Source of the DNA: Polyangiaceae bacterium
Lineage (GTDB): Bacteria; Myxococcota_A; Polyangia; Polyangiales; Polyangiaceae
Reading direction: 5' to 3'
Assembly: GCA_029261965.1 (NCBI GenBank)
Contig: JAJDAH010000199.1
Span: forward strand, 1 to 48,083
DNA: 48,083 nt
In this document: piece by piece, positions 28,562 to 44,055 of the stretch
How the letters are laid out: the number at the start of each line of letters is the position of its first letter
Numbering within the stretch: position 1 is the stretch's first letter
The notes under the pieces: generated by a model
What the model was told of the DNA's origin: nothing
Database searches by the model: none
The model's input: only the letters and a program-made list of their open reading frames with translations
Program-made: the position numbers and the translations under genes

Positions 28562-29881
28562 GTGAAGGTAGCGATCGTAGGTACGGGTTACGTCGGACTC
28601 GTTGCCGGAGCCTGCTTGGCAGACTCCGGACTCGACGTCACGTGCGTCGACGTCGACGAAGAGAAGCTCGCGAAGCTGCGCCGGGGCGAGGTGACGTTTT
28701 TCGAGCCCGGGCTCGAAGAGCTACTCAAGCGCAACTGGCCGGCGCGATTGCATTTCAGCTCGAATCTCGCCGAATCGATCGAGGGTCGCGGCCTGGTGTT
28801 CGTCGCCGTGGGCACGCCACCGACGGAGGACGGGGCAGCGGACCTCTCGCATGTGCTGAGGGTGGCGGAAGACGTCGCCAAGGCGGCACAACACGACCTC
28901 GCTATCGTGCTCAAGAGCACAGTCCCCGTCGGCACCAACGAGAAGGTCAGCCAGCTCGTCGAGAGCGTCGCCAACACCCGCATCCCGGTGGTGAGCAATC
29001 CAGAGTTTCTGAAGGAAGGCGACGCGGTAAACGACTTCCTCAAGCCGGACCGCATCGTCGTGGGCACCGATGACGACGGGGCCTTCGAGCTCATGCGCCG
29101 CCTGTACGCCCCGTTCAATCGCCAGCGCAACCGGCTCATGCGTATGAGCCCGAAGAGTGCGGAGATCGTCAAGTACGCGGCCAACGCAATGCTCGCGACC
29201 AAGATTTCGTTCATCAACGAGATTGCCCATCTGTGCGACGTCGCCGGCGGCGACGTCGAAGAAGTCCGCGTGGCGCTCGGCTCGGACAAGCGCATCGGCT
29301 ACCAGTTCCTCTACCCGGGCCTCGGCTTCGGAGGCAGCTGCTTCCCCAAAGACCTGCGCGCCCTGGTGCGCACCGGCAACGAGCTGGGGGCACCGCTCAG
29401 AGTCGTCGAGGCGGCGATTGCAGCCAACATGCAACCGCTGACCGAAATGCTCAGCCACATGAAACACGACCTCGGGGGCTTGGGCGGGAAAACGATCGCC
29501 GTCTGGGGACTGTCCTTCAAGCCGAGGACCGACGACGTCCGCGAAGCACCAGCGATTCGAGCTATCGCCGAACTCGGCGCGGCAGGAGCCCGGGTCCGGG
29601 CCACCGACCCCGAAGCTCTCGAGACGGCTCGCGTACAGCTCGAAAACAGCGGCATCCGCGAAGGCGTCGAGCTCGTCGGTGACGAATACGAAGCCTGCCG
29701 GGACGCCGACGCGCTCCTCTTGTGCACCGAGTGGAGCGAGTATCGGGCGCCCGACGTGGTCCGGCTCAAAGAGTTGATGCGCGGTTGTCACATCTTCGAC
29801 GGGCGCAACATCATGGACCGCGCCGAGCTCGAAGAAGCCGGGTTCAAGTACCGCGGCGTCGGACTACCCGCGACCCGCTAG
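28562..29881 (+). CDS. ugd: UDP-glucose 6-dehydrogenase
   Basis: A 439-residue cytoplasmic enzyme that oxidises UDP-glucose to UDP-glucuronate with two NAD+. The Rossmann motif VAIVGTGYVGLVAG starts at residue 3. The catalytic Cys260 is in GFGGSCFPKD. Other family marks are VGTPP, LKSTVPVGT, SNPEFLKEGDAV, KYAANAMLATKISFINE and WGLSFKPRTDDVREAPA. Length and order are normal. The start is GTG 28562. The product feeds capsule and lipopolysaccharide sugars, and the epimerase at 40648 would use it. A hairpin overlies its 5' end, and it converges with the cytochrome-like gene. Confidence 0.96.
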   Translation: MKVAIVGTGYVGLVAGACLADSGLDVTCVDVDEEKLAKLRRGEVTFFEPGLEELLKRNWPARLHFSSNLAESIEGRGLVFVAVGTPPTEDGAADLSHVLRVAEDVAKAAQHDLAIVLKSTVPVGTNEKVSQLVESVANTRIPVVSNPEFLKEGDAVNDFLKPDRIVVGTDDDGAFELMRRLYAPFNRQRNRLMRMSPKSAEIVKYAANAMLATKISFINEIAHLCDVAGGDVEEVRVALGSDKRIGYQFLYPGLGFGGSCFPKDLRALVRTGNELGAPLRVVEAAIAANMQPLTEMLSHMKHDLGGLGGKTIAVWGLSFKPRTDDVREAPAIRAIAELGAAGARVRATDPEALETARVQLENSGIREGVELVGDEYEACRDADALLLCTEWSEYRAPDVVRLKELMRGCHIFDGRNIMDRAELEEAGFKYRGVGLPATR

Positions 29882-31095: not shown

Positions 31096-33294
31096 TCAGC
31101 TCGAGCGAGACGCTGTCTTCGGCGCGCCAGATTGAAAGTCGACGCCCAGTTTCGACACACTCGCGAGACGTTTTCCCGTCGGGATGAGTTCGACGTTCTC
31201 GACGAACTCGACGTCGATCTGCATCTCCTCGCCGAGGTACTGGCGAAACGTGGCGAGGATTTCCTCGAGCACGTCGTCGGAGTACCTGCCGCCTTTGACG
31301 ACGCGAAACGACATCGCGTGCGGTTGCTCTTGCACGACTTGAAACCGCTGGATCGCGTGGTCGAACTCCTTGAGGTAGTGAGCAAAAAACGTCCCCGGCA
31401 GATACCGCCCATCGGTACCTTGGATGATTGATTGAACGCGCCCCTCGATGTCTCCGATGAGCGGGAGACCTCGGCCGCAGGCGCAAGAGCGCGAGGGATC
31501 TGTCGCCACGGCGAGATCCCCGATTCGGTATCGGATGAAGGGTAGACAGTAGTTGTTCAGATCCGTGATGACGACCTCGCCGACTTCGCCGGGCGGGGCG
31601 GGCTCTCCGTTGCGAAGTATCTCGACGATGTAGCCCTCGCCGACGACGTGATGGCCCGAATGGGCATCGCACTCGTAGGCGATGCCGCTGAATTCCCGGG
31701 CGCCATACTTGTCGAAAACCTTGCAACCGAAGGCTTCTTCGATGAGTCGCCGGCTCGGCGCCGGAAGCGTTTGTGCGCTACTCATCAACGCCTTCGGTCG
31801 TACGTCGACACGTCCGCGGCTCTTCAAGTACTGCGCGAGAAAGTCGAGCGCCTCGGCGTAACCATCCATCAAGACGGGCTGCCAATCGGCGATCTCGCGC
31901 ACCATCTCGTCGAGCTTGTGCTCGCTCATTTCGAACACCGGAACGAATTTCCTCCGGCTGAGCCACGCGTCGAGCATTTCTTGGCGCGCCTGAGTCGGCG
32001 ACATGCCCAGCGTCTGGTGCCACAGCCGCACGGTCCGGTCACCGAACTGGTACCCCGTCCATTCCTGGGCTCTGAGCGTCGCCGCCCACCGAAACTCGAG
32101 CTGCGACCGGTCCGCGTAGCAGACGAACGGCTCGCCCGTCGAACCGCTCGTCGTGATCTTGAGAACGGTATCCTTGTCGTGGTTCTCGCTCAACATGTCG
32201 AAGTACAAATGCTCGCGAACGTCGTCCTTGGTCAGGAAATCGAGCTTGTGCAAATCGTCCTGGCCGCGCACGTCTTCGGGGCGGAGCTTGTTTCGCCGCA
32301 TGGATTCCCGGTAAAACGGCACGTTTCGGTAGGCGTGGCGAACCAAGCGCCGGAGCTTCTCGTCTTGGAGCTCGCGGAGCTGGCTGGGCTCGAGCCACTG
32401 GGTCTGCCGGAGCGCGTCGTAGTCCTGCTCGACGTCGCGGGTGATCATCCAATGCGTTTCGTCGAAGACGCCGAGATACCCCTTCCAGTGCAGACGACGC
32501 GAAGGCGACAGCTTCGGGCTTCGGTCGACGACCGGGTGGCGCCGCAAGAATTGCTCGGACACGTCGTGCGGACGGCGCCGGACGCGGTACTCCCACGCGG
32601 CCTTACCGAGGTCGACAACGCTCCTGGCTGCGGCGGTGTACGCGATGTCGTCGAGGAAGCTCTTTCCCGAGCGACGGCGCTCGAACAGTGTTTCGACCTG
32701 TTTGTACGAGTACCCCTTGGCGTGCGCCGCGACCATGATGAAGGACTGCCAATAGGAGTAGGTGCCCCGATAGGTGAGCAGGTCCTCCATGACCTCTTTG
32801 GAGCAGATGACGAAACCGCTCTTGTTGTCCTGGAGCGACATGCCGAACGCCTTGTTGAGCATGAGGTTGAACCCTCGGCTCAAATGGTAGCGAGCGTCGC
32901 GGCGGCGCCCGACGGCGCTTCGCCAGCCCTGTACGACGTCGACGCTGTGCTCGTAGAGCTCTCGATACAACCGCAGCAGGTCCTCAGGCTGGTATTGGAG
33001 GTCGGCGTCGATGATGGCCACAATCGGCGCTCGCGCTGCGGTCGTGCCGCTCCTCCACGCCTCGGCGATACCGCGATTGCTCGGGTGATACGCCCCGATC
33101 ACCCGACCGGGATAGGCTCGTTCCAGAGCTTCGATCGCGGCGCGCGTGCCATCCGTGCTGCCATCGTCGACGAGCACCAACTCGCCGGGAAGCTCTCCGC
33201 GGTCGAACACCGCGAGCACACGCCGCGCGAGTTCGGGGACGTTCGTCTCCTCGTTGAAACAAGGCGCGATGACCGTAAGCGCGAGATCGCTCAT
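31096..33294 (-). CDS. Fusion of a family-2 glycosyltransferase with a CapK/phenylacetate-CoA-ligase-like adenylating domain
   Basis: A 732-residue protein with two halves. Residues 1-235 are a GT2 domain of the polyprenol-phosphate sugar transferase type: TVIAPCFNEETNVPEL, DDGSTDGT at 43-50, DAD at 96-98, and no membrane segment. Residues 290-732 are a CapK/PaaK-type AMP-forming domain: RNVPFYRE, the P-loop TTSGSTGEP (381-389), DKYGAREFSGIAYEC, LPFIRYRIGDLA, and a C-terminal cap with GRVQSIIQG. CapK genes often lie in polysaccharide clusters but stand alone; this fusion I have not met. Its ATG follows the stop of the crotonase gene with no gap, so both are coupled. Joint work on a lipid-linked or acyl-modified sugar is inferred. 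Confidence 0.9.
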   Translation of the reverse strand: MSDLALTVIAPCFNEETNVPELARRVLAVFDRGELPGELVLVDDGSTDGTRAAIEALERAYPGRVIGAYHPSNRGIAEAWRSGTTAARAPIVAIIDADLQYQPEDLLRLYRELYEHSVDVVQGWRSAVGRRRDARYHLSRGFNLMLNKAFGMSLQDNKSGFVICSKEVMEDLLTYRGTYSYWQSFIMVAAHAKGYSYKQVETLFERRRSGKSFLDDIAYTAAARSVVDLGKAAWEYRVRRRPHDVSEQFLRRHPVVDRSPKLSPSRRLHWKGYLGVFDETHWMITRDVEQDYDALRQTQWLEPSQLRELQDEKLRRLVRHAYRNVPFYRESMRRNKLRPEDVRGQDDLHKLDFLTKDDVREHLYFDMLSENHDKDTVLKITTSGSTGEPFVCYADRSQLEFRWAATLRAQEWTGYQFGDRTVRLWHQTLGMSPTQARQEMLDAWLSRRKFVPVFEMSEHKLDEMVREIADWQPVLMDGYAEALDFLAQYLKSRGRVDVRPKALMSSAQTLPAPSRRLIEEAFGCKVFDKYGAREFSGIAYECDAHSGHHVVGEGYIVEILRNGEPAPPGEVGEVVITDLNNYCLPFIRYRIGDLAVATDPSRSCACGRGLPLIGDIEGRVQSIIQGTDGRYLPGTFFAHYLKEFDHAIQRFQVVQEQPHAMSFRVVKGGRYSDDVLEEILATFRQYLGEEMQIDVEFVENVELIPTGKRLASVSKLGVDFQSGAPKTASRSS

Positions 33295-34080
33295 CTACGT
33301 CTTTCGGGCGCGCTTCTCGAGAAACGCGGCGACGGCGGCACGATGCTCTTCGGAGTCCACCGAGAGCATGTACTGATCCGTGTCCATGTGGATGACCGAC
33401 GCATCGCCTGCCGACGCAATGGCGTTGATGCTGCGCTTGATAGATTGCGCCGCGAAGGGAGGTTTCTCGGCGTAGGCGCGAGCGAGCTCGAGCGCGCGCT
33501 CGCGTAGTTTCGACTCCGGGATCAACTCGTCGAAAAAACCCCATTGCACCAGAGTTTCCGCCGGAACCTTTTCTCCGAGAACCACCATGCGCTTGGCGCG
33601 CGCGGGACCGACGAGCCGCACGCAAAGTGGAAGCGCTCCCCAGCTCAGGTTCATACCCAGATCGATTTCCGGGTATCCAGCTACGGAGCCCTCGGCGCCG
33701 AGACGAAAATCGCACGCCGTTGCGATGCAGGCGCCGCCCCCGAGCGCTCCACCGTGGATGGCGCAAATCGTGATCGGGTTCATCTCGTGGATCGCTCGGA
33801 TCATCGTGGGGCCCACGCGGAACCGACGCCAACGCGCACCGTGCGACCCCGAGGTACGGTCGCCCTGTTCGGCGTCGGCGAGATCCGCGCCAGCGGTGAA
33901 GTATCGCCCCGCCCCTCGAAAAATTACGGCCCGCACTGCTTCGTCCGCGCTCAGCTCGCCCGCGACCGCGGTGATCTCGCGCATGAGTGCCACGCTGAGC
34001 GCATTGAGGCGCTCGGGGCGGTTCAGGGTGACTACCGCGACGGGACCGTCGCGCTCGACCTCGAGTGACTCGTAAACCAT
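33295..34080 (-). CDS. Enoyl-CoA hydratase/isomerase family protein
   Basis: A 261-residue crotonase-fold enzyme of normal length. The oxyanion-hole segments are FRGAGRYFTAGADL and IHGGALGGGACIATACD. The catalytic-Glu region reads GYPEIDLGMNLSWG, so a hydratase-type acid/base Glu is present, unlike the crotonase at 19483. It starts at ATG 34080 and ends exactly where the GT2-CapK fusion begins, so both come from one transcript. It would act on a CoA thioester, which fits an adenylating partner that makes one. Substrate unknown. Confidence 0.92.
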   Translation of the reverse strand: MVYESLEVERDGPVAVVTLNRPERLNALSVALMREITAVAGELSADEAVRAVIFRGAGRYFTAGADLADAEQGDRTSGSHGARWRRFRVGPTMIRAIHEMNPITICAIHGGALGGGACIATACDFRLGAEGSVAGYPEIDLGMNLSWGALPLCVRLVGPARAKRMVVLGEKVPAETLVQWGFFDELIPESKLRERALELARAYAEKPPFAAQSIKRSINAIASAGDASVIHMDTDQYMLSVDSEEHRAAVAAFLEKRARKT

Positions 34081-34118: not shown

Positions 34119-34478
34119 TCAGGCGCAGCTGACGGTTACGCCGTGCGTGTGAGCGTTGCTGTTGTCGGAGGTGACGTTGATCGTGCGACCGCCGGCGAGA
34201 GACGCGAAGCGATCGGCGGAAATCGTCACGGTGTGGCTGTGTCCGGCTCCGCCGGCGATGTCGTAGGTCTTGGTCTCGCCCGCCGCCACGTCGGCCGCCG
34301 ACACGGTGAGGGTGTGGCCGTGATTCGCCGAAATGGTGGAGCTCGTGCCGTTGTCGACGCAATTGCCGCCGGATTCTTCGCCACCGCCGCCGCCGCACCC
34401 AGCGCCGGCGCTCAAACCGAGCGCCCCACCCGCCACGGCGAGAGAGGCGCGAAAAAACTCCTTCCGAGTCATCTGCAT
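34119..34478 (-). CDS. Small exported protein with three HxH motifs
   Basis: A 119-residue protein I do not recognise. It opens MQMTRKEFFRASLAVAGGALGL, which resembles a twin-arginine signal (TRKEFFR, Arg-Lys in place of Arg-Arg), with a lipobox Cys28. A Gly-rich linker follows. The mature domain of about 80 residues is beta-rich and repeats a strand with HxH three times: HGHTLTV (53-55), HSHTVTI (80-82) and THGVTVSCA (His110 and His112). Ser/Thr-rich strands alternate. The histidines may bind a metal. The start ATG 34478 is fixed by AAGGAG six bases upstream. It sits 38 bp downstream of the crotonase, on the same strand. Confidence 0.75.
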   Translation of the reverse strand: MQMTRKEFFRASLAVAGGALGLSAGAGCGGGGGEESGGNCVDNGTSSTISANHGHTLTVSAADVAAGETKTYDIAGGAGHSHTVTISADRFASLAGGRTINVTSDNSNAHTHGVTVSCA

Positions 34479-34566
34479 CGCGGGCTCCTTGTGCTTAAAG
34501 TGCGCGAACGGACACGTGACAGTAGTCGAGAACGGCGGTAGAGCGAAGCGACTCGAGCAATCGGCA

Positions 34567-35310
34567 ATGAAAGCGGTCAAGTGGCTTCTGGTCGGGGTAT
34601 TCGCTGTCTTGTCGCAGTGCAGCCCGACGCTTCCTTCATCTACCCCGCTCGGGGGAGAAGACGAGGGCGAGCCCGATGCACCCGATGGGAGCGCGCCGAA
34701 AAAACGCGACGCCGGTCTGGAAAGTGCGCCGACGCCGCCTCCCTCGGTCGAGGCACCGGCCGACTCCGGGGTCGACGCCGAAGACGCCGAGGCCGACGCC
34801 CTCGACGCGCAGGTGGATGCCGACGCGAGCCGCGCCCCGAACCCGACGGCGGCCGCGGAACCCTGCAAGAACTCCGAGGGCAATCCGCCCGGTTGCGGCC
34901 AGATGTCGGACCAATGCCCCGGCGGCAAATCGGTGACCTACCTCTGCCAAGCGATGCGGAAAGTCCTTCAGCCGAGACCGGCCGAGAAGATCATCGCTTG
35001 TTTCGCGAAGGCGGCGGCGGCCGGTGAGCTTTGCGGCAAAGACGAGGCGATCGAAAACTGCGTGCGCGTCATGCTGAAGGGCTCCTGCGCCGAAAAGGAC
35101 ACGGAAAAGTTCTGCACGGGCATCGAGCAGGCGTGCCCGAACAGGTCGAAGTTGACTCCGGAGTTCAACAGAGAAAACTGCGTCAAGGGATTCTCGGCGA
35201 TGCGACCCGAGTATCGAAACGATCTCGCCGAGTGCTTGAAGAAGAGCTGCGACCTTTCGGACTGCGCTGGCATGACCCTGATGAAATCCGGCATCATGCC
35301 AGGTGGCTGA
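34567..35310 (+). CDS. Cys-rich lipoprotein
   Basis: A 247-residue exported protein of unknown function. Signal peptide KAVKWLLVGVFAVLSQC (Cys18 lipidated), then a long Asp/Ala/Pro linker to residue 95. The mature domain has about 14 Cys in spacings such as CKNSEGNPPGCGQMSDQC, FCTGIEQAC and SCDLSDC, which suggests several disulphides and a small helical Cys-stabilised fold. Such proteins recur in this window. The start is ATG 34567 because the upstream frame is antisense to the HxH gene. It is divergent from the HxH gene by 88 bp. Confidence 0.75.
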   Translation: MKAVKWLLVGVFAVLSQCSPTLPSSTPLGGEDEGEPDAPDGSAPKKRDAGLESAPTPPPSVEAPADSGVDAEDAEADALDAQVDADASRAPNPTAAAEPCKNSEGNPPGCGQMSDQCPGGKSVTYLCQAMRKVLQPRPAEKIIACFAKAAAAGELCGKDEAIENCVRVMLKGSCAEKDTEKFCTGIEQACPNRSKLTPEFNRENCVKGFSAMRPEYRNDLAECLKKSCDLSDCAGMTLMKSGIMPGG

Positions 35311-35355: not shown

Positions 35356-38300
35356 TCAAACGAGAGCGGAGTACCCCGGCGTACTCATCTCGAGGCACCG
35401 GTCGACGTTGAGCACGCCCTCGGTCGCGAAGTAATGACTGGTTTGCTCGAGCAACCGCTGACCTTCGTCGCCACCCAAAAGCTGCCCTCGGCGACGACGC
35501 GCACACGCGGCGAGATAACCCATGTCGCACGCGTCCAGACCGGAGATCGCTTCGGACAACTCGCGCTCTGCCGTTTCCGCATGACCGCGAAGCGCGGCGA
35601 TGCTCGCCCCGAGTAGGCTACTCATTGCCGGCGCGTGCCGCTGCGGCTCCTTCGCGAGTCGCGACTTGTTGGTTTCGGCGATCGTCATCAGCTGTTTGCG
35701 ATCGATACCAGCCTCGGCGGCAGCGATGGCGCTGAGGGCCTGTTCAAAGGTGGAGAACGCCCGCACCATGTTGACCCGCAGCAGGTGGGACTGTTCGAGG
35801 CGGGGGTATTCCCGCTGAAAGCGCGCCCAACCGGCTTGGGGATCGGCGAGGTAGCGCTCGACGGATGCCGCGGAGATCAACGCACCCCAGTGCCCCGCGG
35901 TGAAACGATCCTGGCCGTATGACCGAGCCACGTCGAGCGCAAACTCGAGCGCCCCCGAAGCATCGTCGTCGCACAGTACCGAAATGGTGTTCGGATAGAT
36001 GAGGTTCATCAGCCCAAAGAGATCCTCGCGTTCGCGCGCGTCCTTCACGAGCGCCGGCACCCGGCGGCGAGTCTCGGCGAGCTGGCCGCTCAAGATCATC
36101 GCGTTCGTGCTCTGCGCACGGGCGACGGCGAGCTCCCAGGCTACGGCGCGGCACCGCTTGCTCAAGATCGCCTCGGCTTCGTCGAGCAGGGTGATCGACG
36201 GTCGCCATTCGCCGCCGTAGAGCCTCACCAAACCCGCGGCGACCTTGGCCAGCGCGAGCGCATGGGGCTCGTCCATTTTGACCGCGAGGCGCTCTGCCGT
36301 GCGCACGAGCTCGTTGGCACGACGGCGCGAGCCGTCTCCGACGGCAGAGACGTTTGCCGCTTCGAGAGCCACCGCACGACAAATTCGCACGGGCTCTCCG
36401 GCTTGGAGCGCGAGCAGCAAGTAGCGCGTCGAAAAGTCGGCTCCTCGCACGACGTCGCCGAGAGACAAGCCGATGGTCGCGGTGAAAACGGCGTCCACGC
36501 GAGTGAGCTCACGGCGAGCAATCTTCTTCTCTGGCCGCTCGCGAAACTTCAAACCTCGAAGCCGCAACCGAGCGCTGTGGTACACGAGCGACGCGATCGT
36601 CGCCGCCTGGGTCTCGGGGTACTTGATGTCGATCTCGCGCAGCACACGACGAAGCGTCGCCACTCCCACCGCCTCGCGGCCGCTCTTCAGGTAGAATTCC
36701 GCGGCGAGTCGGCGCAAGTCGAGCGCCTCCTCCGGTGGCGCGCTGTTGCAAGCGTCGATGTACGCGTCCGCGGCGTCCGCGCCAAGACCCGCGCTGGCCA
36801 GAGCCACACCCGCGCGGCGCAAAAGCTCGTGAGGCGGCGTGCCGGCGCCGAGATCCACCGCGAGGCGGTAGAGCTTCGCCGCTCGGCGGAAAGCGAGACC
36901 GCTGGCGGCTTCGTCGGCGGCAATGACGACATGACGACGCGCCTGATCGCGTTCGCCGGCCGCCAGGTAGTGCTCGACGAGCTCGCCGGCCTCCGCGCGA
37001 CCACCGTCCTCGAGCACGCGCGCCAGACGCCCGTGCCACTTACGGCGACGTTCGGGCGGAAGAGCGGCGCGTACGGTTTCCCGGATGCGCGCATGAAACG
37101 TCTCCGCTTCGTCGCGATCGCTCAACCCGTGCGTACGTACGAGCTTCGACGATCGGAGCGCTGCGGCCACCGTCCGGTTCTTCTGTTCGAATCCCGCCGC
37201 CTTTTCGGCGACGCGGTGTTCCAGCGGGCCATTGGCCACGGCAAAAACCTCGAGAAGGGTTCGAGCCTCATCCGGTAGCCTGCTCACGCGATCGCGAACG
37301 ACCTCTTCGAGCGACACCGACTCGAGCTCGCCGCGATCCCCCCGGGCCCGGCGCTCTTGCTGCCACCGCACGAGCTCGGTCAAGAAGAACGGAATGCCTT
37401 GCGACTCGCGGGCGATGGCGCGGGCGACGTCCGAGCTCAGCGGCGCCTCGTCGACGATCGACGCACGCGCGAGATCGATGGCCTCGTGGTCCGAAAGAGT
37501 GCCGACTTCGATTTCCGAATCGGCGACACCCGGAGCTTCGCTCACGAAGGTCGCGAGTTGCTCGACCGCCTCTCGCGACTCGGCGTTCTCGTCTCGATAG
37601 CTGAGAACGAGCAGCACCGGCGGGGCGTCCGCCGCGCCGAGCATGTCGCGAATGAGCTCGATGCTGTCGCTGTCACCCCACTGCATGTCGTCGATGTGCA
37701 GGATCAGCTGACGATTTTTGCACACGTTGCTGACCAAGTCTCGAAAGGCCTTGAACGCGCGCAACCGCATCTCGCGGGGCTCGGCGTTTTCGCGAGGGTC
37801 GTCGGTTCGCGGGGCGAGATCGAAGGCGGCCACGTTTCGGAGCACCGGGAACACTCGAGACAGATCGTGTGAACCTTCGGGAACGAGCGGTTGCGCGTCG
37901 GGGTCCGCCAGACGCATCAGCCATCGGCTGAGGTCGTCGACCACGCTGTCGAGCGCTTTGAATGGAACCGACTCGCGCTCGTAACATCGGCCCGAGAGAA
38001 CGAGCACGCCTGCCCGTTCTGCCGCGTGCGCCGTGAACTGCTGAAGCAGCGTCGACTTGCCCATCCCGGATTTTCCACGCACGAACACCACGACCGGCTG
38101 TTCTTTCCCAGCGAGATCGAGCGCGGCTTCGAGTTTTTCGAGGTGGTTGCGGCGGCCGACGAACGGCGCCGACTTGGTTCCCGTGGTGGTCGTCTCGCCC
38201 GAGCCGAGGATCGCGAGAATTTCTTCTCCGGTCGGTCGGTCCTCGGCGCTCTTCGAGAGCAACGCCACGCAGAGATCGTTGATGTCGTTCGGGACGCCGG

Positions 38301-39195
38301 TGACGATCTCGTTGGGTGGAACGGGCGTCGCGTATTGTTTCCCGAAGAAAACGTGACGCGTCTCTCCACCGAAGGGGACCCGGCTGGTGAGTGCTTCGTA
38401 CAGCATGACACCGACCGCATACCAATCTGATGCCGGCTCTGGCGTCCGTCCGGCGGCTTGCTCCGGCGCCATGTACGCGGGCGTGCCGACGATGTGTCGT
38501 TCGAGGGTGTCCTCGCCCTTTCGGCGCGCGTCGTAGTCTTGGATCAAGCCGAAGTCCAAGAGCACGACGCGACCCTGTTTGGTCACGAGCACGTTCGATG
38601 GCTTGATGTCGCGGTGCAACTTGCCGGACGCGTGAAGCGCCATGACCCCAGCGACGAGCTGGCGCAGCGTTGCCCGCAGGCGGTCCATGTCGTCGACGAG
38701 CACGGGCTGCACCGGCGCCGCTTTGCTGGCCGGAGCAGTCTTCAGGCTCTCGAGCGTGGGGGGAGGCTCGGCCTCGGCGTCGACGCTCGGGCGGGTCTCC
38801 GCCGCCATCGTCGCGGCGTTCGCTTTCCCGGTGACGCCCGGACCCCTGGCTCGTCCTGAAGGGGAGAGCTTGACGGTGGTGACGTCCTGCAACCAACTCA
38901 AAAAGTCGACGCCGTCGACCAACTCCATCGTGAAGAACCAAGTGTTCTTCTCCGAGATGAGCTCGTAGAGCTCGACCAGGTTCGGATGGGAAATGTCGGC
39001 GAGCGAACGAAACTCGGTCTTGAACCTCAAGAGCGCGTCTGGATCGATGTACGACATCGTCTTGAGCGCGACCTGCGCTCCCATTTCCTGGTCGTAGGCG
39101 CTGTAGACGACCCCCATGCCGCCCTCACCGACTCGACTGGCGATGTCGAAACGCTCGTTCCCGGTGAACTCGCTGCTCGCCGCGTCGGATCCCAC
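35356..39195 (-). CDS. Ser/Thr protein kinase fused to an AAA-type ATPase and helical repeats
   Basis: A 1279-residue signalling protein. The kinase (residues 15-330) has VGEGGMGVVY, Lys45, the catalytic HRDIKPSN (Asp196) and DFG (214-216), all intact. An unusual 65-residue low-complexity insert lies in the kinase at about 105-170. A STAND-like ATPase follows: Walker A GKSGMGKST at 374-382 and Walker B LILHIDDMQW near 497-505. The last 550 residues are helical repeats of the tetratricopeptide kind. This layout resembles PknK-type kinase/ATPase regulators. The start is GTG 39195, four bases after the stop of the receiver gene. The insert and the repeats suggest binding of other proteins. Confidence 0.93.
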   Translation of the reverse strand: MGSDAASSEFTGNERFDIASRVGEGGMGVVYSAYDQEMGAQVALKTMSYIDPDALLRFKTEFRSLADISHPNLVELYELISEKNTWFFTMELVDGVDFLSWLQDVTTVKLSPSGRARGPGVTGKANAATMAAETRPSVDAEAEPPPTLESLKTAPASKAAPVQPVLVDDMDRLRATLRQLVAGVMALHASGKLHRDIKPSNVLVTKQGRVVLLDFGLIQDYDARRKGEDTLERHIVGTPAYMAPEQAAGRTPEPASDWYAVGVMLYEALTSRVPFGGETRHVFFGKQYATPVPPNEIVTGVPNDINDLCVALLSKSAEDRPTGEEILAILGSGETTTTGTKSAPFVGRRNHLEKLEAALDLAGKEQPVVVFVRGKSGMGKSTLLQQFTAHAAERAGVLVLSGRCYERESVPFKALDSVVDDLSRWLMRLADPDAQPLVPEGSHDLSRVFPVLRNVAAFDLAPRTDDPRENAEPREMRLRAFKAFRDLVSNVCKNRQLILHIDDMQWGDSDSIELIRDMLGAADAPPVLLVLSYRDENAESREAVEQLATFVSEAPGVADSEIEVGTLSDHEAIDLARASIVDEAPLSSDVARAIARESQGIPFFLTELVRWQQERRARGDRGELESVSLEEVVRDRVSRLPDEARTLLEVFAVANGPLEHRVAEKAAGFEQKNRTVAAALRSSKLVRTHGLSDRDEAETFHARIRETVRAALPPERRRKWHGRLARVLEDGGRAEAGELVEHYLAAGERDQARRHVVIAADEAASGLAFRRAAKLYRLAVDLGAGTPPHELLRRAGVALASAGLGADAADAYIDACNSAPPEEALDLRRLAAEFYLKSGREAVGVATLRRVLREIDIKYPETQAATIASLVYHSARLRLRGLKFRERPEKKIARRELTRVDAVFTATIGLSLGDVVRGADFSTRYLLLALQAGEPVRICRAVALEAANVSAVGDGSRRRANELVRTAERLAVKMDEPHALALAKVAAGLVRLYGGEWRPSITLLDEAEAILSKRCRAVAWELAVARAQSTNAMILSGQLAETRRRVPALVKDAREREDLFGLMNLIYPNTISVLCDDDASGALEFALDVARSYGQDRFTAGHWGALISAASVERYLADPQAGWARFQREYPRLEQSHLLRVNMVRAFSTFEQALSAIAAAEAGIDRKQLMTIAETNKSRLAKEPQRHAPAMSSLLGASIAALRGHAETAERELSEAISGLDACDMGYLAACARRRRGQLLGGDEGQRLLEQTSHYFATEGVLNVDRCLEMSTPGYSALV

Positions 39196-39199
39196 GGAC

Positions 39200-39634
39200 C
39201 TACGACTGCCGCTTGGGGCGGCGACCCGACTTGAGCTCCACCTGGCGCGCCGGAAAGCTCGGCGCTCCGACGGCAGCGGCGTGTTCGTGACGCGCGTGAA
39301 CGACCTCTTGAATGGCCTGGGAGAGCACCTCGACGCCTTCGTCTCGCTCCACGACGACACCGAGATTGCCGGCCCGGTGGCGCTGATCGGCGTCGCGCAT
39401 CGTGTCGAAGAAGATCACGTCGATGACGCGCTCCTCGGCGATCAGCCAACCGGCAAGCGAGATCCCAGGACCGTCGGGAAAGGTGAGCGGAAACACGCCG
39501 CAGTCGAAGGGACCGACGTGGCCGCATGCCGCCTCACACGAGCCCGCGACGGTCACCTCGTAACCTCGCTGCTCGAGCACGCGCCTGATGGCCTCGGCCA
39601 CGGGCGCGGAAGGTTCCGCCACCAACACCCTCAT
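39200..39634 (-). CDS. Degenerate receiver-domain protein
   Basis: A 144-residue protein with the fold signature of a response-regulator receiver (MRVLVAEPSAPVAEAIRRVLEQRGYEVTVAG) but without its key residues. The acidic pair is Glu-Pro (VAEPS). The phospho-acceptor position reads FDCGVFPLTFPDG, with no Asp at the usual place. The Lys of strand 5 appears as a Glu (VVVERDEGV). It should therefore not be phosphorylated in the classical way, and may act as a binding module. Its gene sits 60 bp after the flippase-like gene and just before the kinase gene (4-bp gap), so it probably partners with that kinase. Confidence 0.75.
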   Translation of the reverse strand: MRVLVAEPSAPVAEAIRRVLEQRGYEVTVAGSCEAACGHVGPFDCGVFPLTFPDGPGISLAGWLIAEERVIDVIFFDTMRDADQRHRAGNLGVVVERDEGVEVLSQAIQEVVHARHEHAAAVGAPSFPARQVELKSGRRPKRQS

Positions 39635-39694: not shown

Positions 39695-40642
39695 TCAGCT
39701 CGCCTCGAGCAGGCGATACGCTCTTCGCATGAAGAGTGGCGACATGATCAGCTGAACGAGTGTGATGCCCACGGCCCAGCTCAGCGTGGCAGCGGCGACG
39801 GCCGCTTCTCCGTGCTCTTGTCCACCCGCCGCGTATCCGGCGAACAGCTGGAGGGCGATGACATCACGCGTACCCACGCCTTGAGGGGTGATGGGCAAGA
39901 CGACGATGAGCATCAGCACCGGGCACAGCGCCAGCGCCGCAGTGAACGGAATGTCGACGTCGAAGAAGCGAAACGGGATCCATGCGCCCAAAAACTGAAT
40001 GCAGATGTGCGGCAGCCGCGTCAGGACCCCCATGGCATGGCCTCGCAGACCGGCGTCCACCAATGGCGCCGTGGCCTGACGCTTCCGGAGAAACTGGGGC
40101 CCGACGCCTATGACCACCAAGTACAGCAGCCCGGCAACTACCAAAACGATGATGACGGGCAGCAACCACGGCATCGTGTCGTAGTTGAACGGAAGCCCGA
40201 GGATTCCGAACAACACGAGTGTCGCGAAGGATGTCGCGTAGACAAAAAGCGTGGCGCCGGCGACCCGCCACAGTGGTGCATCGTAGGTTTTCGAAATGAA
40301 GTACGTCAGCCATGCCTGGCCAACGTTGTGGTTGATCGCGCTCGGCAAGTAAGACGCGCCACGAATGATGAAGATTTCACCGAACGTCACCGGACACACG
40401 CTTCGGTAGGCGTAGGCGGTAGCCGCAGAGTCCGCCGTGAGCAGGGCCAACACGAACGCCAACGTGAAACCGAAAAAACCCAAGTAGTGCGTCGCCCCAA
40501 GCGCTTCGACGAATTTTGCGAAGTCGATCCGACCAAGGACGAACGCGACGAGCCCCGCCCCGATCAGCAAAGGGAGCAGTCGTCGCCAGAGAGGCGGTTT
40601 GGGAGGCACCGCGGGCTCTGACCCCGCCGCTGGCGCGGACAC
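39695..40642 (-). CDS. Lysylphosphatidylglycerol-synthase-type membrane protein (flippase-like, YbhN/AglD family)
   Basis: A 315-residue integral membrane protein with about eight hydrophobic segments. It belongs to the LPG_synthase_TM/UPF0104 family: GLVAFVLGRIDFAKFVEAL, SYLPSAINHNVGQAWLTYF and the late motif LPITPQGVGTRDVIALQLFAG. Relatives flip or transfer lipid-linked molecules, for example with glycosyltransferases. It lacks the soluble MprF domain. The start is GTG 40642, five bases after the epimerase stop. ATG 40696 would overlap the epimerase by 49 bp and is less likely. It is the second gene of the epimerase-flippase-receiver-kinase run and probably handles a uronic-acid glycolipid. 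Confidence 0.88.
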   Translation of the reverse strand: MSAPAAGSEPAVPPKPPLWRRLLPLLIGAGLVAFVLGRIDFAKFVEALGATHYLGFFGFTLAFVLALLTADSAATAYAYRSVCPVTFGEIFIIRGASYLPSAINHNVGQAWLTYFISKTYDAPLWRVAGATLFVYATSFATLVLFGILGLPFNYDTMPWLLPVIIVLVVAGLLYLVVIGVGPQFLRKRQATAPLVDAGLRGHAMGVLTRLPHICIQFLGAWIPFRFFDVDIPFTAALALCPVLMLIVVLPITPQGVGTRDVIALQLFAGYAAGGQEHGEAAVAAATLSWAVGITLVQLIMSPLFMRRAYRLLEAS

Positions 40643-40647
40643 GTCGT

Positions 40648-41625
40648 TCAACCAGGTCCTCGATCGCGAGGCGGGGCCTCGGGACCGTCGAGCCATTCGA
40701 CCCAGCGAGCGATTCCCTCCTCGAGACTCACTTTCGGTTCGTAGTCGAACGCTCCAGCCGCCTTCGACACGTTGGCGGAGGTGACCTTCGATTCACCGGG
40801 TTGGAGCCGACCGACCTGCACCCGAGGCTCGACACCGAGAGCCTTTCCCATCAACTCGATCAACCGAGTGACGCGCACGGGCTCGCTGCGGCCGAGGTTG
40901 AACGTGTCCGTGCGGCGCCCTTTGCCGACCCAAGCTACGGCGCCCATCACCCCGTCGACGATGTCGTCGATGAAGGTGAAGTCTCGTTCGGTCTCCTCAC
41001 CATGCAGGGTGATGGTCTCGCCAGCCCAGAGCTGCCGGGTGAACTTCGCCACCGCCATATCCGGGCGACCCCGGGGACCATAGACGGTGAAGAAGCGCAA
41101 AATCGCGATCGGCAGATCGTAGAGGTCGTGATAGGCGTGCACCATCATTTCCGCCCCACGCTTGCTCGCGGCATACGGGGACAGCGGGCGGTCACAGTAG
41201 TCGTCTTCGACGAAAGGAACGCGCGACGTGTTGCCATAGACCGAAGAGGTCGATGCAAAAGCCATCGCGGTGCCATGCACTTTGCAGGCGTCGAGCAAAT
41301 GAAGACCCCCGAGTTCGTTGACACGAATGTACGACGCCGGATCGTCCACACTCGCTCGCACGCCGGCTTTCGCGGCCAAGTGAACGACGATGTCCGGCTC
41401 GGCCATTTCGAACGCTCGCGTCACGGCGGCACCGTCGGCCACGTCCGCTTCGACGAGGCGATAAGAATCGTTGGATTGAGCCTGGGCGACGTTTCGACGT
41501 TTCTGGGCGGGATCGTAGTACGGGTCGAAATTGTCGACCGCCGTCACGGTGTAGCCGTCGCGAAGGAAGCGGTCGGCAACGTGTGAGCCGATGAAACCTG
41601 CACCGCCGGTCACCAAGGCTCGCAT
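40648..41625 (-). CDS. UDP-glucuronate 4-epimerase (NAD-dependent epimerase family)
   Basis: A 325-residue SDR enzyme that interconverts UDP-glucuronate and UDP-galacturonate. Features: GGAGFIG at 7-13 for NAD, Asp31 in AVDNFDPYYDP, ASTSSVYG with the catalytic Ser/Thr, Tyr151 and Lys155 in YxxxK. The segment RFFTVYGPRGRPDMA and ERDFTFIDDIVDG are typical of the glucuronate epimerase branch rather than GalE. Length is normal. It starts at ATG 41625 and is followed by the flippase-like gene after five bases. The substrate comes from ugd at 28562. Divergent from the SelD fusion across 195 bp, where no clear promoter was seen. Confidence 0.92.
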   Translation of the reverse strand: MRALVTGGAGFIGSHVADRFLRDGYTVTAVDNFDPYYDPAQKRRNVAQAQSNDSYRLVEADVADGAAVTRAFEMAEPDIVVHLAAKAGVRASVDDPASYIRVNELGGLHLLDACKVHGTAMAFASTSSVYGNTSRVPFVEDDYCDRPLSPYAASKRGAEMMVHAYHDLYDLPIAILRFFTVYGPRGRPDMAVAKFTRQLWAGETITLHGEETERDFTFIDDIVDGVMGAVAWVGKGRRTDTFNLGRSEPVRVTRLIELMGKALGVEPRVQVGRLQPGESKVTSANVSKAAGAFDYEPKVSLEEGIARWVEWLDGPEAPPRDRGPG

Positions 41626-41820
41626 GGGCGGCGATACTAGCAGCGAATCGGCTTCAGGCCCCCGGGTCTTCACGGCGTTTTTGACGGTCGGCGAGCGCCG
41701 CGTCTCCCGCCGAAATCCGCAGCTGTGCGAGAATACGCGCCGCACGAATTCCGTTTGCGATTTTTCGAGACGCGGCACTAGCCACGGACCGCGAGCTATG
41801 CGGTAGATGAGAGCGGCGAG

Positions 41821-44055
41821 ATGACGATCGGAACAGGCGCGCGACGCTCTGAAGTCGTCCTCGTGGGTGGCGGTCACGTGCACGTACAGGTGCTCGCCAA
41901 GCTGGCCATGGAACCCATCGACGGAGCCCGCGTCACTGTCGTTCTCGACCACCCAATCGCGGTCTACTCGGGCATGGTCCCGGGATTCATCGCCGGACAG
42001 TACTCCGCCGAAGAGCTCGAAATCGACGTCGTGCCGCTCGCTCGCCGCGCAGGCGCCAACGTCGTTCTCGCTCGCGCCACGCACCTGGACGTCAAACAGA
42101 GACGTCTGCATGTGGTCGGCCGACCGCCGCTTCGGTACGACTACGCGAGCATCAACATCGGCTCGACCGTCGCCGGCCTCGAGACCCCGGGGGTTCGAGA
42201 GCTCGCCGTTCCGTCGCGTCCCATTGGCGAGCTCGTTCGCCGGATGGAAGACGTTTTGCGACGCGCGGAGCTGAGCTCCGACCGCCCGCTGTCCGTCGTG
42301 GTCGTCGGCGCGGGCGCCGGCGGTGTCGAAGTCGCGTTCACACTGGACCAACGGCTTCGCAAACGCTGCGCGGGCGGGGTCCGAATCAGCATCGTGCACT
42401 CCGGCGACCGCCTGCTCGGCACCTACCCGAAAAAGCTGAGCCGCCGGGTCACCGCTTTGGCGGTCGAGCGGGGAATCGAGACACTGCCCAACACCGTGGT
42501 GCGCGCCATCGAGCCAGGATGCGTCGTTTTCGACGACGGGGAACCGCTCGATGCCGACACGGTGTTCTGGGTCACCGGGGCTTCGGGCCACTCTTTTTTC
42601 CGCGATTCGGGGTTGCCGACGGACGCGCGCGGGTTCGCCAAGACGTCGCCGGAGCTGCTCCTCGAAGGCCGGGGAGACGTGTTCGCGGTCGGCGACTGCG
42701 CGACGCTCACCGACTATCCCGACACGCCGAAAGCCGGCGTCTACGCGGTTCGCGAAGGGCCGTATCTCGTCGACAACCTTCGAGCCGCCGTGCGCGGCAC
42801 GGCGCTCCGGCGCTACGAGCCGCAATCCGATTTTCTGACTCTGCTCAACCTCGGCGACGGGACGGCGATCGGCGCCAAGTGGTCCCGAGTGATCGAAGGC
42901 GCGTGGGTCATGTCGCTCAAGGACTCGATCGATCGCCGGTTCATGCGCCGGTTTCGTGTTCTCGAATCAACCGGCGCCCTCACGGAGCACTTCGCGAGCG
43001 CCCCGGTGATGGACGAGGAAATGCCGTGTGGTGGGTGCGCGGCCAAAGTCGGTCAGTCGGTGCTCACCCGAGCGCTCGAACGACTTCCCAAACCTGCGGC
43101 GGACTCGTCCGTCACCCTCGGCCTCGACGCCGCGGACGACGCCGCGGCGTTCAAAACTCCGAGCGGGGACCTCGTCGTGACGAGCGTCGACGCGTTCCGA
43201 GCCTTTCTCGACGACCCCCACCTCGTCGCAAAAGTGGCGGCGGTGAACGCCGCCAGCGACCTGTTCGCGAAGGGCGCCGAACCGAAACATGCGCTCGCGC
43301 TCGTCGCCGTTCCGGTCGAGCTCTCGCCGGAGGACGCGGAGGAGCTTCTGTTCCAGGTGATGTCCGGAGCGCGGAGCGTCTTCGACGAGATGGGGGTCAC
43401 GCTCACCGGCGGACACACCACGACGGCGCCGGAGCTGCTCGTCGGTTTCGCGGTGGACGGAACGACGACCGCACCGCTTTTGACGATGGACGGTCTCGAA
43501 CCCGGCATGGCGCTGGTCTCGAGCAAGCCACTCGGCACGGGTGTGGTTCTCGCCGCGGACATGCGTGGCCGGGCGCGCGGCGAGTGGCTCGAGGCGACAC
43601 TCGCGTCGATGCTCCAGTCGAACGCGGAAGCCGCGAGCGAAGCGCGGCGCTTCGGAGCCACCGCTGCGACCGATGTCACCGGTTTCGGATTGGCGGGGCA
43701 CTTGCACGCCATGCTGGAGCGGGCCGGCGCGAGTGCGACGCTCGATCTCTCACGAATCGTGGCGCTGCCCGGCGCCGTCGAGCTCAACGCCGAAGGGTTT
43801 CGCAGCACCGCGCACGCCGAGAACGTAAAGGTGAAGCGCGCTTTCAAGATCGAGAGCTCGGCGGCCAGTCACCGAAGGCTCGAGCTGCTCTTCGACCCGC
43901 AAACGTCGGGAGGTCTCTTGGTCGGTTTGGAGCCGGACGCCGCGGCGAGCATGGTTTCGCGCTTGAACGAGAGGGGCCACCGCGCAGCCGTCATCGGCAA
44001 CGTCGAGCCACCTCGGGCGGACGGTGCCGTCATCCGCGTCGTCGCGAACCCGTGA
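41821..44055 (+). CDS. selD: Fusion of an NADH-dehydrogenase-like flavoprotein with selenide, water dikinase (SelD)
   Basis: A 744-residue protein. Residues 10-385 form a type-II NADH dehydrogenase-like FAD/NAD oxidoreductase: VVLVGGGHVHVQVL, the second dinucleotide motif VVVVGAGAGGVEVA, and the FAD-contact DVFAVGDCATL. Residues 395-744 are SelD, which makes selenophosphate from selenide and ATP: MPCGGCAAKVG with Cys403, Cys406 and Lys409, LGLDAADDAAAF, TSVDAFRAFLDDP, TGGHTTTAPE and TDVTGFGLAGHLH. Such fusions are known from several bacteria. No selA, selB or tRNA-Sec is in this window, and the peroxidases here use Cys, so selenophosphate may serve tRNA modification or a cofactor. ATG 41821 is the start. 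Confidence 0.95.
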   Translation: MTIGTGARRSEVVLVGGGHVHVQVLAKLAMEPIDGARVTVVLDHPIAVYSGMVPGFIAGQYSAEELEIDVVPLARRAGANVVLARATHLDVKQRRLHVVGRPPLRYDYASINIGSTVAGLETPGVRELAVPSRPIGELVRRMEDVLRRAELSSDRPLSVVVVGAGAGGVEVAFTLDQRLRKRCAGGVRISIVHSGDRLLGTYPKKLSRRVTALAVERGIETLPNTVVRAIEPGCVVFDDGEPLDADTVFWVTGASGHSFFRDSGLPTDARGFAKTSPELLLEGRGDVFAVGDCATLTDYPDTPKAGVYAVREGPYLVDNLRAAVRGTALRRYEPQSDFLTLLNLGDGTAIGAKWSRVIEGAWVMSLKDSIDRRFMRRFRVLESTGALTEHFASAPVMDEEMPCGGCAAKVGQSVLTRALERLPKPAADSSVTLGLDAADDAAAFKTPSGDLVVTSVDAFRAFLDDPHLVAKVAAVNAASDLFAKGAEPKHALALVAVPVELSPEDAEELLFQVMSGARSVFDEMGVTLTGGHTTTAPELLVGFAVDGTTTAPLLTMDGLEPGMALVSSKPLGTGVVLAADMRGRARGEWLEATLASMLQSNAEAASEARRFGATAATDVTGFGLAGHLHAMLERAGASATLDLSRIVALPGAVELNAEGFRSTAHAENVKVKRAFKIESSAASHRRLELLFDPQTSGGLLVGLEPDAAASMVSRLNERGHRAAVIGNVEPPRADGAVIRVVANP

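Follow-up and report, generated by a model that had tools for sequence, protein, structure and literature searches.

Organization of the locus

We analyzed a 48,083-nucleotide stretch of DNA, referred to below as the window, from a Polyangiaceae bacterium (contig JAJDAH010000199.1 of assembly GCA_029261965.1; the genome comprises 9.6 Mb in 480 contigs). The minus strand of the window encodes, at positions 31096-33294, a protein of 732 residues in which a glycosyltransferase family 2 (GT2) domain is joined to a CapK/PaaK-like adenylating domain. This assignment is based on the open reading frame (ORF) with its ATG start (33294-33292), on sequence motifs, on matches to Pfam and NCBIfam models and on alignment. 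The translated ORF contains DDGS at residues 43-46, DAD at residues 96-98 and TTSGSTGEP at residues 381-389, in agreement with a preliminary description of this DNA. The GT2 domain occupies residues 7-169 (32788-33276, minus strand) and the CapK-like domain approximately residues 297-715 (31150-32406, minus strand). Alignment delimited a poorly conserved linker at approximately residues 240-280 (32455-32577, minus strand). The AlphaFold2 model of the fusion had a mean predicted local distance difference test score (pLDDT) of 83.7 and a predicted template modeling score (pTM) of 0.77. Because an identical full-length architecture recurs in other genomes, the fusion is not an artefact of sequencing or assembly. 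A crotonase-family gene directly abuts it on the same strand and is described further below.

The GT2 half

The Pfam model Glycos_transf_2 (PF00535) matched residues 7-169 with a score of 97.3 bits, above its cut-off of 23.3. The DxD-type motif characteristic of glycosyltransferase family 2 is present as D96-x-D98 (33001-33009, minus strand), both aspartates being invariant in the 30 copies aligned below. When a profile of the GT2 half was compared with the PDB, the top seven matches were all polyprenyl-phosphate glycosyltransferases of the DPMS, ArnC and GtrB types (E 2e-22 to 1e-19), and the first match after this group had an E value of 1.7e-14. Comparison of the predicted structure gave Z scores between 19.8 and 26.1 for DPMS, ArnC and GtrB entries, against 19.7 for the highest-scoring GT2 enzyme of another kind. 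DPMS (Z 25-26) thus led clearly, whereas the weakest GtrB entry (19.8 vs 19.7) had no lead. From profile and predicted structure, the GT2 half thus appears closest to polyprenyl-phosphate sugar synthases rather than to other GT2 enzymes, the nearest solved relatives being DPMS (5mlz), ArnC (9bhc, 9bhe) and GtrB (5ekp). A DADLQ..PE stretch is common to the GT2 half, DPMS and ArnC in the printed alignments. ArnC and GtrB carry C-terminal membrane helices. The GT2 half differs from DPMS, ArnC and GtrB in being joined to an adenylating domain.

The CapK half

CapK genes recur in polysaccharide clusters, and to our knowledge no reaction has been demonstrated for a CapK protein. The Pfam AMP-binding model matched residues 365-577 with 26.6 bits, under its cut-off of 29.9; the fold match was clear, with Z 27-29 against PaaK-type chains for the predicted structure and an E value of 1e-40 for the profile. 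The NCBIfam PaaK-like AMP-ligase model matched residues 297-620 with 151 bits (equivalog cut-off 300), and two further coenzyme A (CoA) ligase models scored 128.1 and 104.7 bits, the latter being the PaaK equivalog TIGR02155, with a cut-off of 646.3. Since neither PaaK equivalog cut-off was reached, the suggestion in the preliminary description that the substrate might be an aryl acid gains no specific support. F390 synthetase and F390-related models also matched, with 58.2 and 40.2 bits.

The motifs of the ANL superfamily found in all 30 aligned copies are the P-loop (T382-G387, within TTSGSTGEP at residues 381-389; 32128-32154, minus strand), A5 YGxxE (Y530, G531, E534), A7 (G592-D593) and A10, represented by K708 (31171-31173, minus strand) of a TGK motif of the A10 type, as described in a review (PMC8388817). 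The half therefore has its fold, P-loop, A5, A7 and A10 in common with PaaK (2y27, 2y4o) and BT_0428 (4r1l), the fold by prediction; it differs from PaaK in its low equivalog score, in a glutamine at the A8 hinge and in being fused.

Conservation of the catalytic residues

The alignment comprised the window copy and 29 of 35 non-redundant proteins from other loci (L022, L030, L038, L042, L044 and L060 were omitted). Sequences at least 95% alike (L024, L048, L053, L059, L061, L063) had been excluded beforehand, as had L043 (two internal stops), L055 and L062 (short) and L064 (frame-broken). In these 30 copies, 32 of 37 active-site positions were invariant. They are, in the GT2 half, D44, S46, D96, D98, Q100, E104, D105, Q122, R125 and S126; and in the CapK half, T382-G387, Y530, G531, R533, E534, R588-R590, G592, D593, C606, R608, R619, Q621 and T706-K708. 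The remaining five varied slightly: D43 (conserved in 27/30), G45 (28/30), A97 (24/30), E388 (28/30) and V620 (29/30). The linker, by comparison, varied freely. Degeneration of one half is thus ruled out, as is the case envisaged in the preliminary description in which neither half keeps its catalytic residues; on this evidence, both halves look active.

Distribution and origin of the fusion

Among 377 sampled Myxococcota genomes, at least 22, the window genome included, gave a match along the full length of the fusion, and at least 27 gave a match of any length at E<=1e-60; scoring was limited to the two best candidates of each genome, which makes both counts lower bounds. One of the 22 full-length matches (genome G348) has two stops within the matched range. 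In a closer set of 39 genomes, made up of the window genome and its relatives and searched at E<=1e-30, 12 have the full-length fusion with at least 59% identity to the window copy, two have the GT2 part alone (54% and 49%) and three have only a CapK part (30-35%). The fusion is therefore conserved yet patchily spread across the myxobacteria.

A search of a wider genome collection matched 76 stretches, of which 55 encode a relative; these fell into 49 loci, near-duplicates among them. Forty-five loci carry the fusion or fragments of it and four (L066-L069) only distant GT2 matches. The nearest relatives are found in metagenome-assembled genomes (MAGs) of Polyangiaceae and other Myxococcota and in Sorangium, Polyangium and Minicystis. 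Three fusion loci come from records outside the Myxococcota: a 'cyanobacterium' MAG (L051), a Candidatus Uhrbacteria MAG (L064), in which the fusion is frame-broken within the CapK half, and an Endomicrobiales MAG (L065). Wider sampling was performed for two of these three groups, and the fusion was found in 1/191 genomes of the class of L064 and 1/198 genomes of the phylum of L065, in each case the starting genome itself. Therefore copies outside the Myxococcota are rare and were perhaps acquired or misbinned.

Phylogenetic trees were calculated with L044 left out. The CapK halves of 35 fusions formed one clade (100/100) to the exclusion of 12 unfused or GT4-fused relatives, which were long-branched.

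A second CapK-glycosyltransferase fusion

A different protein of 849 residues has a CapK-like N-terminal domain followed by a glycosyltransferase family 4 (GT4) domain at approximately residues 491-822. At least six genomes, all from a single genus within the same family, gave full-length matches to it; the best three candidates per genome were scored here, so the counts for this protein are again lower bounds. The two copies read have 849 and 844 residues (L079:8449-10998 and L080:7248-9782), and the fusion is also present in L088-L093. In at least five genomes of two other genera (G018, G947, G950, G788 and G804), CapK and GT4 are separate genes, 56-62% identical to the parts of the fusion, codirectional and adjacent, with spacings from a few bases of overlap to about 70 bases. 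In G955 the two homologues are adjacent and divergently oriented. This is the classic pattern of genes fused in some genomes and adjacent in others.

Like the GT2-CapK protein, the CapK-GT4 protein joins a CapK-like domain to a glycosyltransferase. However, its domain order is reversed, the glycosyltransferase is of family 4 instead of family 2, and its CapK domain is about 35-37% identical and belongs to a separate clade. Because the CapK clades differ, the two fusions are independent, and on sequence grounds a CapK-glycosyltransferase fusion has arisen at least twice. The notion that CapK is a separate protein of polysaccharide clusters therefore needs amending, given the GT2-CapK fusion in the 22 or more Myxococcota genomes counted above and this independent fusion with GT4.

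Gene neighborhood

At 46 fusion loci, near-duplicates included, sugar epimerases formed the commonest neighbor group (20 loci), followed by methyltransferases (15) and DUF362 proteins (14). The epimerase and methyltransferase groups are single-linkage clusters in which several different epimerases and methyltransferases are mixed. In 12 of the 14 loci with DUF362, its gene lies directly downstream of the fusion on the same strand. Such DUF362 proteins were seen in Sorangium, Polyangium and Minicystis loci (L031:12241-13644 and relatives).

Background frequencies were estimated from 16 random regions, which came from seven genomes that carry the fusion rather than from the 16 that supplied the fusion set. 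Genes were called with a custom codon-bias script (in the comparison of the 46 loci it called none in L065, for which an ORF listing was used), genes of more than 1500 residues were omitted from both sets, and each gene was assigned to its best Pfam model. The 129 genes lying no more than 5.5 kb from 16 non-redundant fusions included 14 with a match to an epimerase model and 10 with a match to a methyltransferase model. Both were absent from the families with at least two members among the 138 control genes; the control shows the 25 commonest of 184 families, and from this absence we took at most one member of each, which gave Fisher P values of 3e-4 for epimerases and 4e-3 for methyltransferases (one in the control assumed). 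Protein kinases were alike in the two sets (4/129 near fusions vs 5/138 in random regions).

Co-occurrence was assessed in the set of 39 genomes, shared ancestry being ignored in the P values. Relatives (E<=1e-40) of the methyltransferase flanking the Sorangium fusion were found in seven genomes, all within the 14 with the fusion or a lone GT2 (P 0.0002), and DUF362 relatives (E<=1e-60) in five, all within the 12 fusion-bearing ones (P 0.0014).

Asparagine (Asn) synthase genes were seen at several loci. In the Endomicrobiales MAG, the fusion stands among codirectional genes for three GT2 enzymes, a GT4 enzyme, an Asn synthase, four B12-binding radical SAM proteins and a nucleotidyltransferase, a run that covers L065:2123-21059. 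In the Uhrbacteria MAG, methyltransferase and Asn synthase genes lie directly 3' of the fusion. A lone GT2 gene (L077) is placed between an Asn synthase gene and a methyltransferase gene whose product is 54% identical to the one flanking the Sorangium fusion.

In the window itself, a membrane protein of the LPG_synthase_TM family (39695-40696, minus strand) and an NAD-dependent sugar epimerase (40648-41625, minus strand; start estimated at MRALVTGG) are encoded 6-8 kb upstream of the fusion on the same strand. In five other loci, four of them from Polyangium, proteins 38-44% identical to this LPG_synthase_TM protein are encoded 1.4-2 kb downstream of the fusion, and the epimerase likewise has relatives encoded close to fusions at other loci. 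A large gene (35356-39360, minus strand) stands between this pair and the fusion; it encodes a Ser/Thr protein kinase of 1334 residues with an AAA_16 ATPase domain. The ORF of the epimerase extends to 42825, and a fusion of a membrane protein with the epimerase (40648-42825) was considered and dropped: the N-terminal 395 residues match no predicted gene of the compared loci and no Pfam family, and are taken as read-through. UDP-glucose dehydrogenase (28562-29881) was likewise rejected as a conserved partner, since L058 alone of the compared loci has a relative among its predicted genes. Farther away, on the plus strand, 41821-44055 encodes a pyridine nucleotide oxidoreductase fused to an AIR-synthase-type domain.

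Proposed function

Our preferred reading, to which we give a probability of about 40%, is that the fusion protein is bifunctional and cytoplasmic and takes part in assembling cell-envelope glycans: a sugar would be mounted on polyprenyl phosphate or a similar carrier, and a carboxylic acid activated to decorate the product. In line with the chemistry of DPMS, ArnC and GtrB, the GT2 half would use a nucleotide sugar as donor and glycosylate polyprenyl phosphate or some related acceptor linked to a lipid. From ATP and a carboxylic acid, the CapK half would form an acyl-adenylate, and the acyl group would then be handed to the glycolipid, or to a small carrier feeding it, leaving an ester or amide decoration. 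The fusion itself, its conservation, the intact motifs, the two folds as predicted, the single CapK clade and the neighbors are observed; we infer that each half is active, that the acceptor is polyprenyl-linked, that an acid is the substrate and that it passes from one site to the other. A sugar and an activated acid meeting on a lipid carrier is a reasonable reading because the catalytic sets are retained and epimerase and methyltransferase neighbors exceed the background. To this extent the pathway proposed in the preliminary description is supported.

Several observations count against this proposal, the main doubt being whether both sites act on one molecule. The only glycosyltransferase among the 25 commonest of 103 neighbor families was PMT_2 (2/129 genes), and no obvious Wzx/Wzy or capsule-export cluster was apparent among the commonest neighbor families of myxobacterial fusions. 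The neighbors are also not always physically linked: the DUF362 gene and the fusion are on different contigs in G015 and G022, the methyltransferase relative of the window genome sits on another contig (C202), and at E<=1e-60 a DUF362 relative is missing from that genome. The GT2 tree places the long-branched lone copy L077 among the fusions, beside two distant ones, and all fusions stay together in only 6% of bootstrap trees. Because L077 lies there, it is not established that the GT2 half arose once; one alternative is that the CapK half may have been lost in the L077 lineage. Finally, the A8 motif of ANL enzymes is Rx(D/K) according to the same review (PMC8388817), and the hinge position is glutamine in 35/35 fusions (RVQ in 34, RTQ in one). 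None of the 12 other CapK proteins (L078-L087, L102, L103), which are unfused or GT4-fused, has Asp or Lys at this position either; all carry Asp or Glu at the next position. Since the hinge lacks Asp or Lys, the CoA step of the CapK half in the fusion may be weak or absent. The CapK subfamily may thus differ from CoA ligases and possibly does not make ordinary CoA thioesters.

This hinge is what lends weight to an unlikely but serious alternative, in which the CapK half works without any CoA step, either adenylylating a hydroxyl or passing an acyl group directly from AMP to a sugar, the GT2 half supplying the acceptor. The matches to F390 synthetase models point the same way, F390 synthetase being an enzyme that adenylylates a hydroxyl of F420. 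However, the PaaK-like and other CoA-ligase models score higher (151, 128.1 and 104.7 bits, as above), and the absence of Asp and Lys from the hinge of CapK proteins outside the GT2 fusions, with an acidic residue next to it, means that alignment register or a habit of the subfamily may explain it.

The two halves might also serve one pathway while acting on different molecules, the fusion merely fixing stoichiometry or expression and a CoA thioester made by the CapK half serving an unlinked acyltransferase. The variable linker, the lone copies of fusion-type GT2 and the adjacent but unfused CapK and GT4 homologues in at least five genomes are in line with such an arrangement, and so is the listing of MBOAT O-acyltransferases in a CapK cluster of Rubrivivax (PMC3684757). 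Yet every CapK match above 38% identity in the 39- and 377-genome surveys, for the latter among the best few candidates of each genome, is fused to GT2, and no clean split between the domains was seen, the break in L064 lying inside the CapK half. We consider this second alternative improbable, if worth keeping in mind, and retain the decoration of a lipid-linked sugar by both halves as the preferred reading.

The adjacent crotonase gene

The crotonase-family gene (33295-34080, minus strand; PF00378, 153.7 bits) ends with a TAG codon at 33297-33295, which leaves zero bases before the ATG of the fusion; the preliminary description was correct on this point. Its frame stays open upstream of the ATG at 34080 up to a GTG at 34398. 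The ATG at 34080 is the likely start, because the upstream stretch overlaps an ORF on the same strand (34119-34928). That ORF corresponds to a small gene whose real start probably lies inside it, at a signal-like MTRKEFFRAS; the protein has a His-rich C-terminal half and matches no Pfam family.

With tblastn (E<=1e-10), the crotonase was not found at any of the other 45 loci that carry the fusion, 39 of which extend 1.5 kb or more upstream, so that among the genomes searched its adjacency to the fusion is confined to the window genome. A further 59 genomes of the family, each with 5 to 57 first-look crotonase candidates, likewise yielded no relative at E<=1e-50. The best PDB match is 3-hydroxypropionyl-CoA dehydratase. 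The window protein has a cysteine in place of the glutamate of the GGGxE stretch of the dehydratase and keeps the glutamate of the PE stretch. These two glutamates, the GGGxE one first, are the catalytic pair, and the protein thus lacks one of the two catalytic glutamates of an enoyl-CoA hydratase. A pathway in which an acid activated by CapK is modified by the crotonase before being placed on the lipid-linked sugar, as the preliminary description had it, is very improbable: the zero-base coupling in the window genome speaks for it, but the absence from the other loci, the lack of close relatives in the family and the cysteine replacement all oppose it. The crotonase was thus rejected as a pathway partner and is best seen as a lineage-specific neighbor without a demonstrated role.

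Relation to known systems and significance

No description of a glycosyltransferase-CapK fusion was found in the literature searched, which consisted of listings and the openings of abstracts and left subscription journals mostly uncovered. The nearest functional evidence that we found is a transposon insertion in a CapK gene of Rubrivivax gelatinosus, reported from work on how that bacterium forms biofilms (PMC3684757). According to that source, this gene (RGS1_10410, in the psc1 cluster) lies beside a group-1 glycosyltransferase gene and near Asn synthase (wbpS) genes. Unlike the fusion, it is listed as a separate gene, and the likeness considered here is one of name and gene listing.

One could go further and regard glycosyltransferase-CapK fusions as self-contained decorators of glycolipids, evolved at least twice; a single polypeptide would mount the sugar on its lipid carrier and then acylate or amidate it from an acyl-adenylate, needing neither free acyl-CoA nor an acyltransferase of its own kind elsewhere; we regard this generalization as rather doubtful. 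The conserved fusion links a CapK half to one type of glycosyltransferase and so suggests a class of acceptor, and the second fusion, with GT4, repeats the tie between CapK and glycosyltransferases. Thus, where there was only a vague CapK annotation, there is now one protein in which both steps could be assayed.

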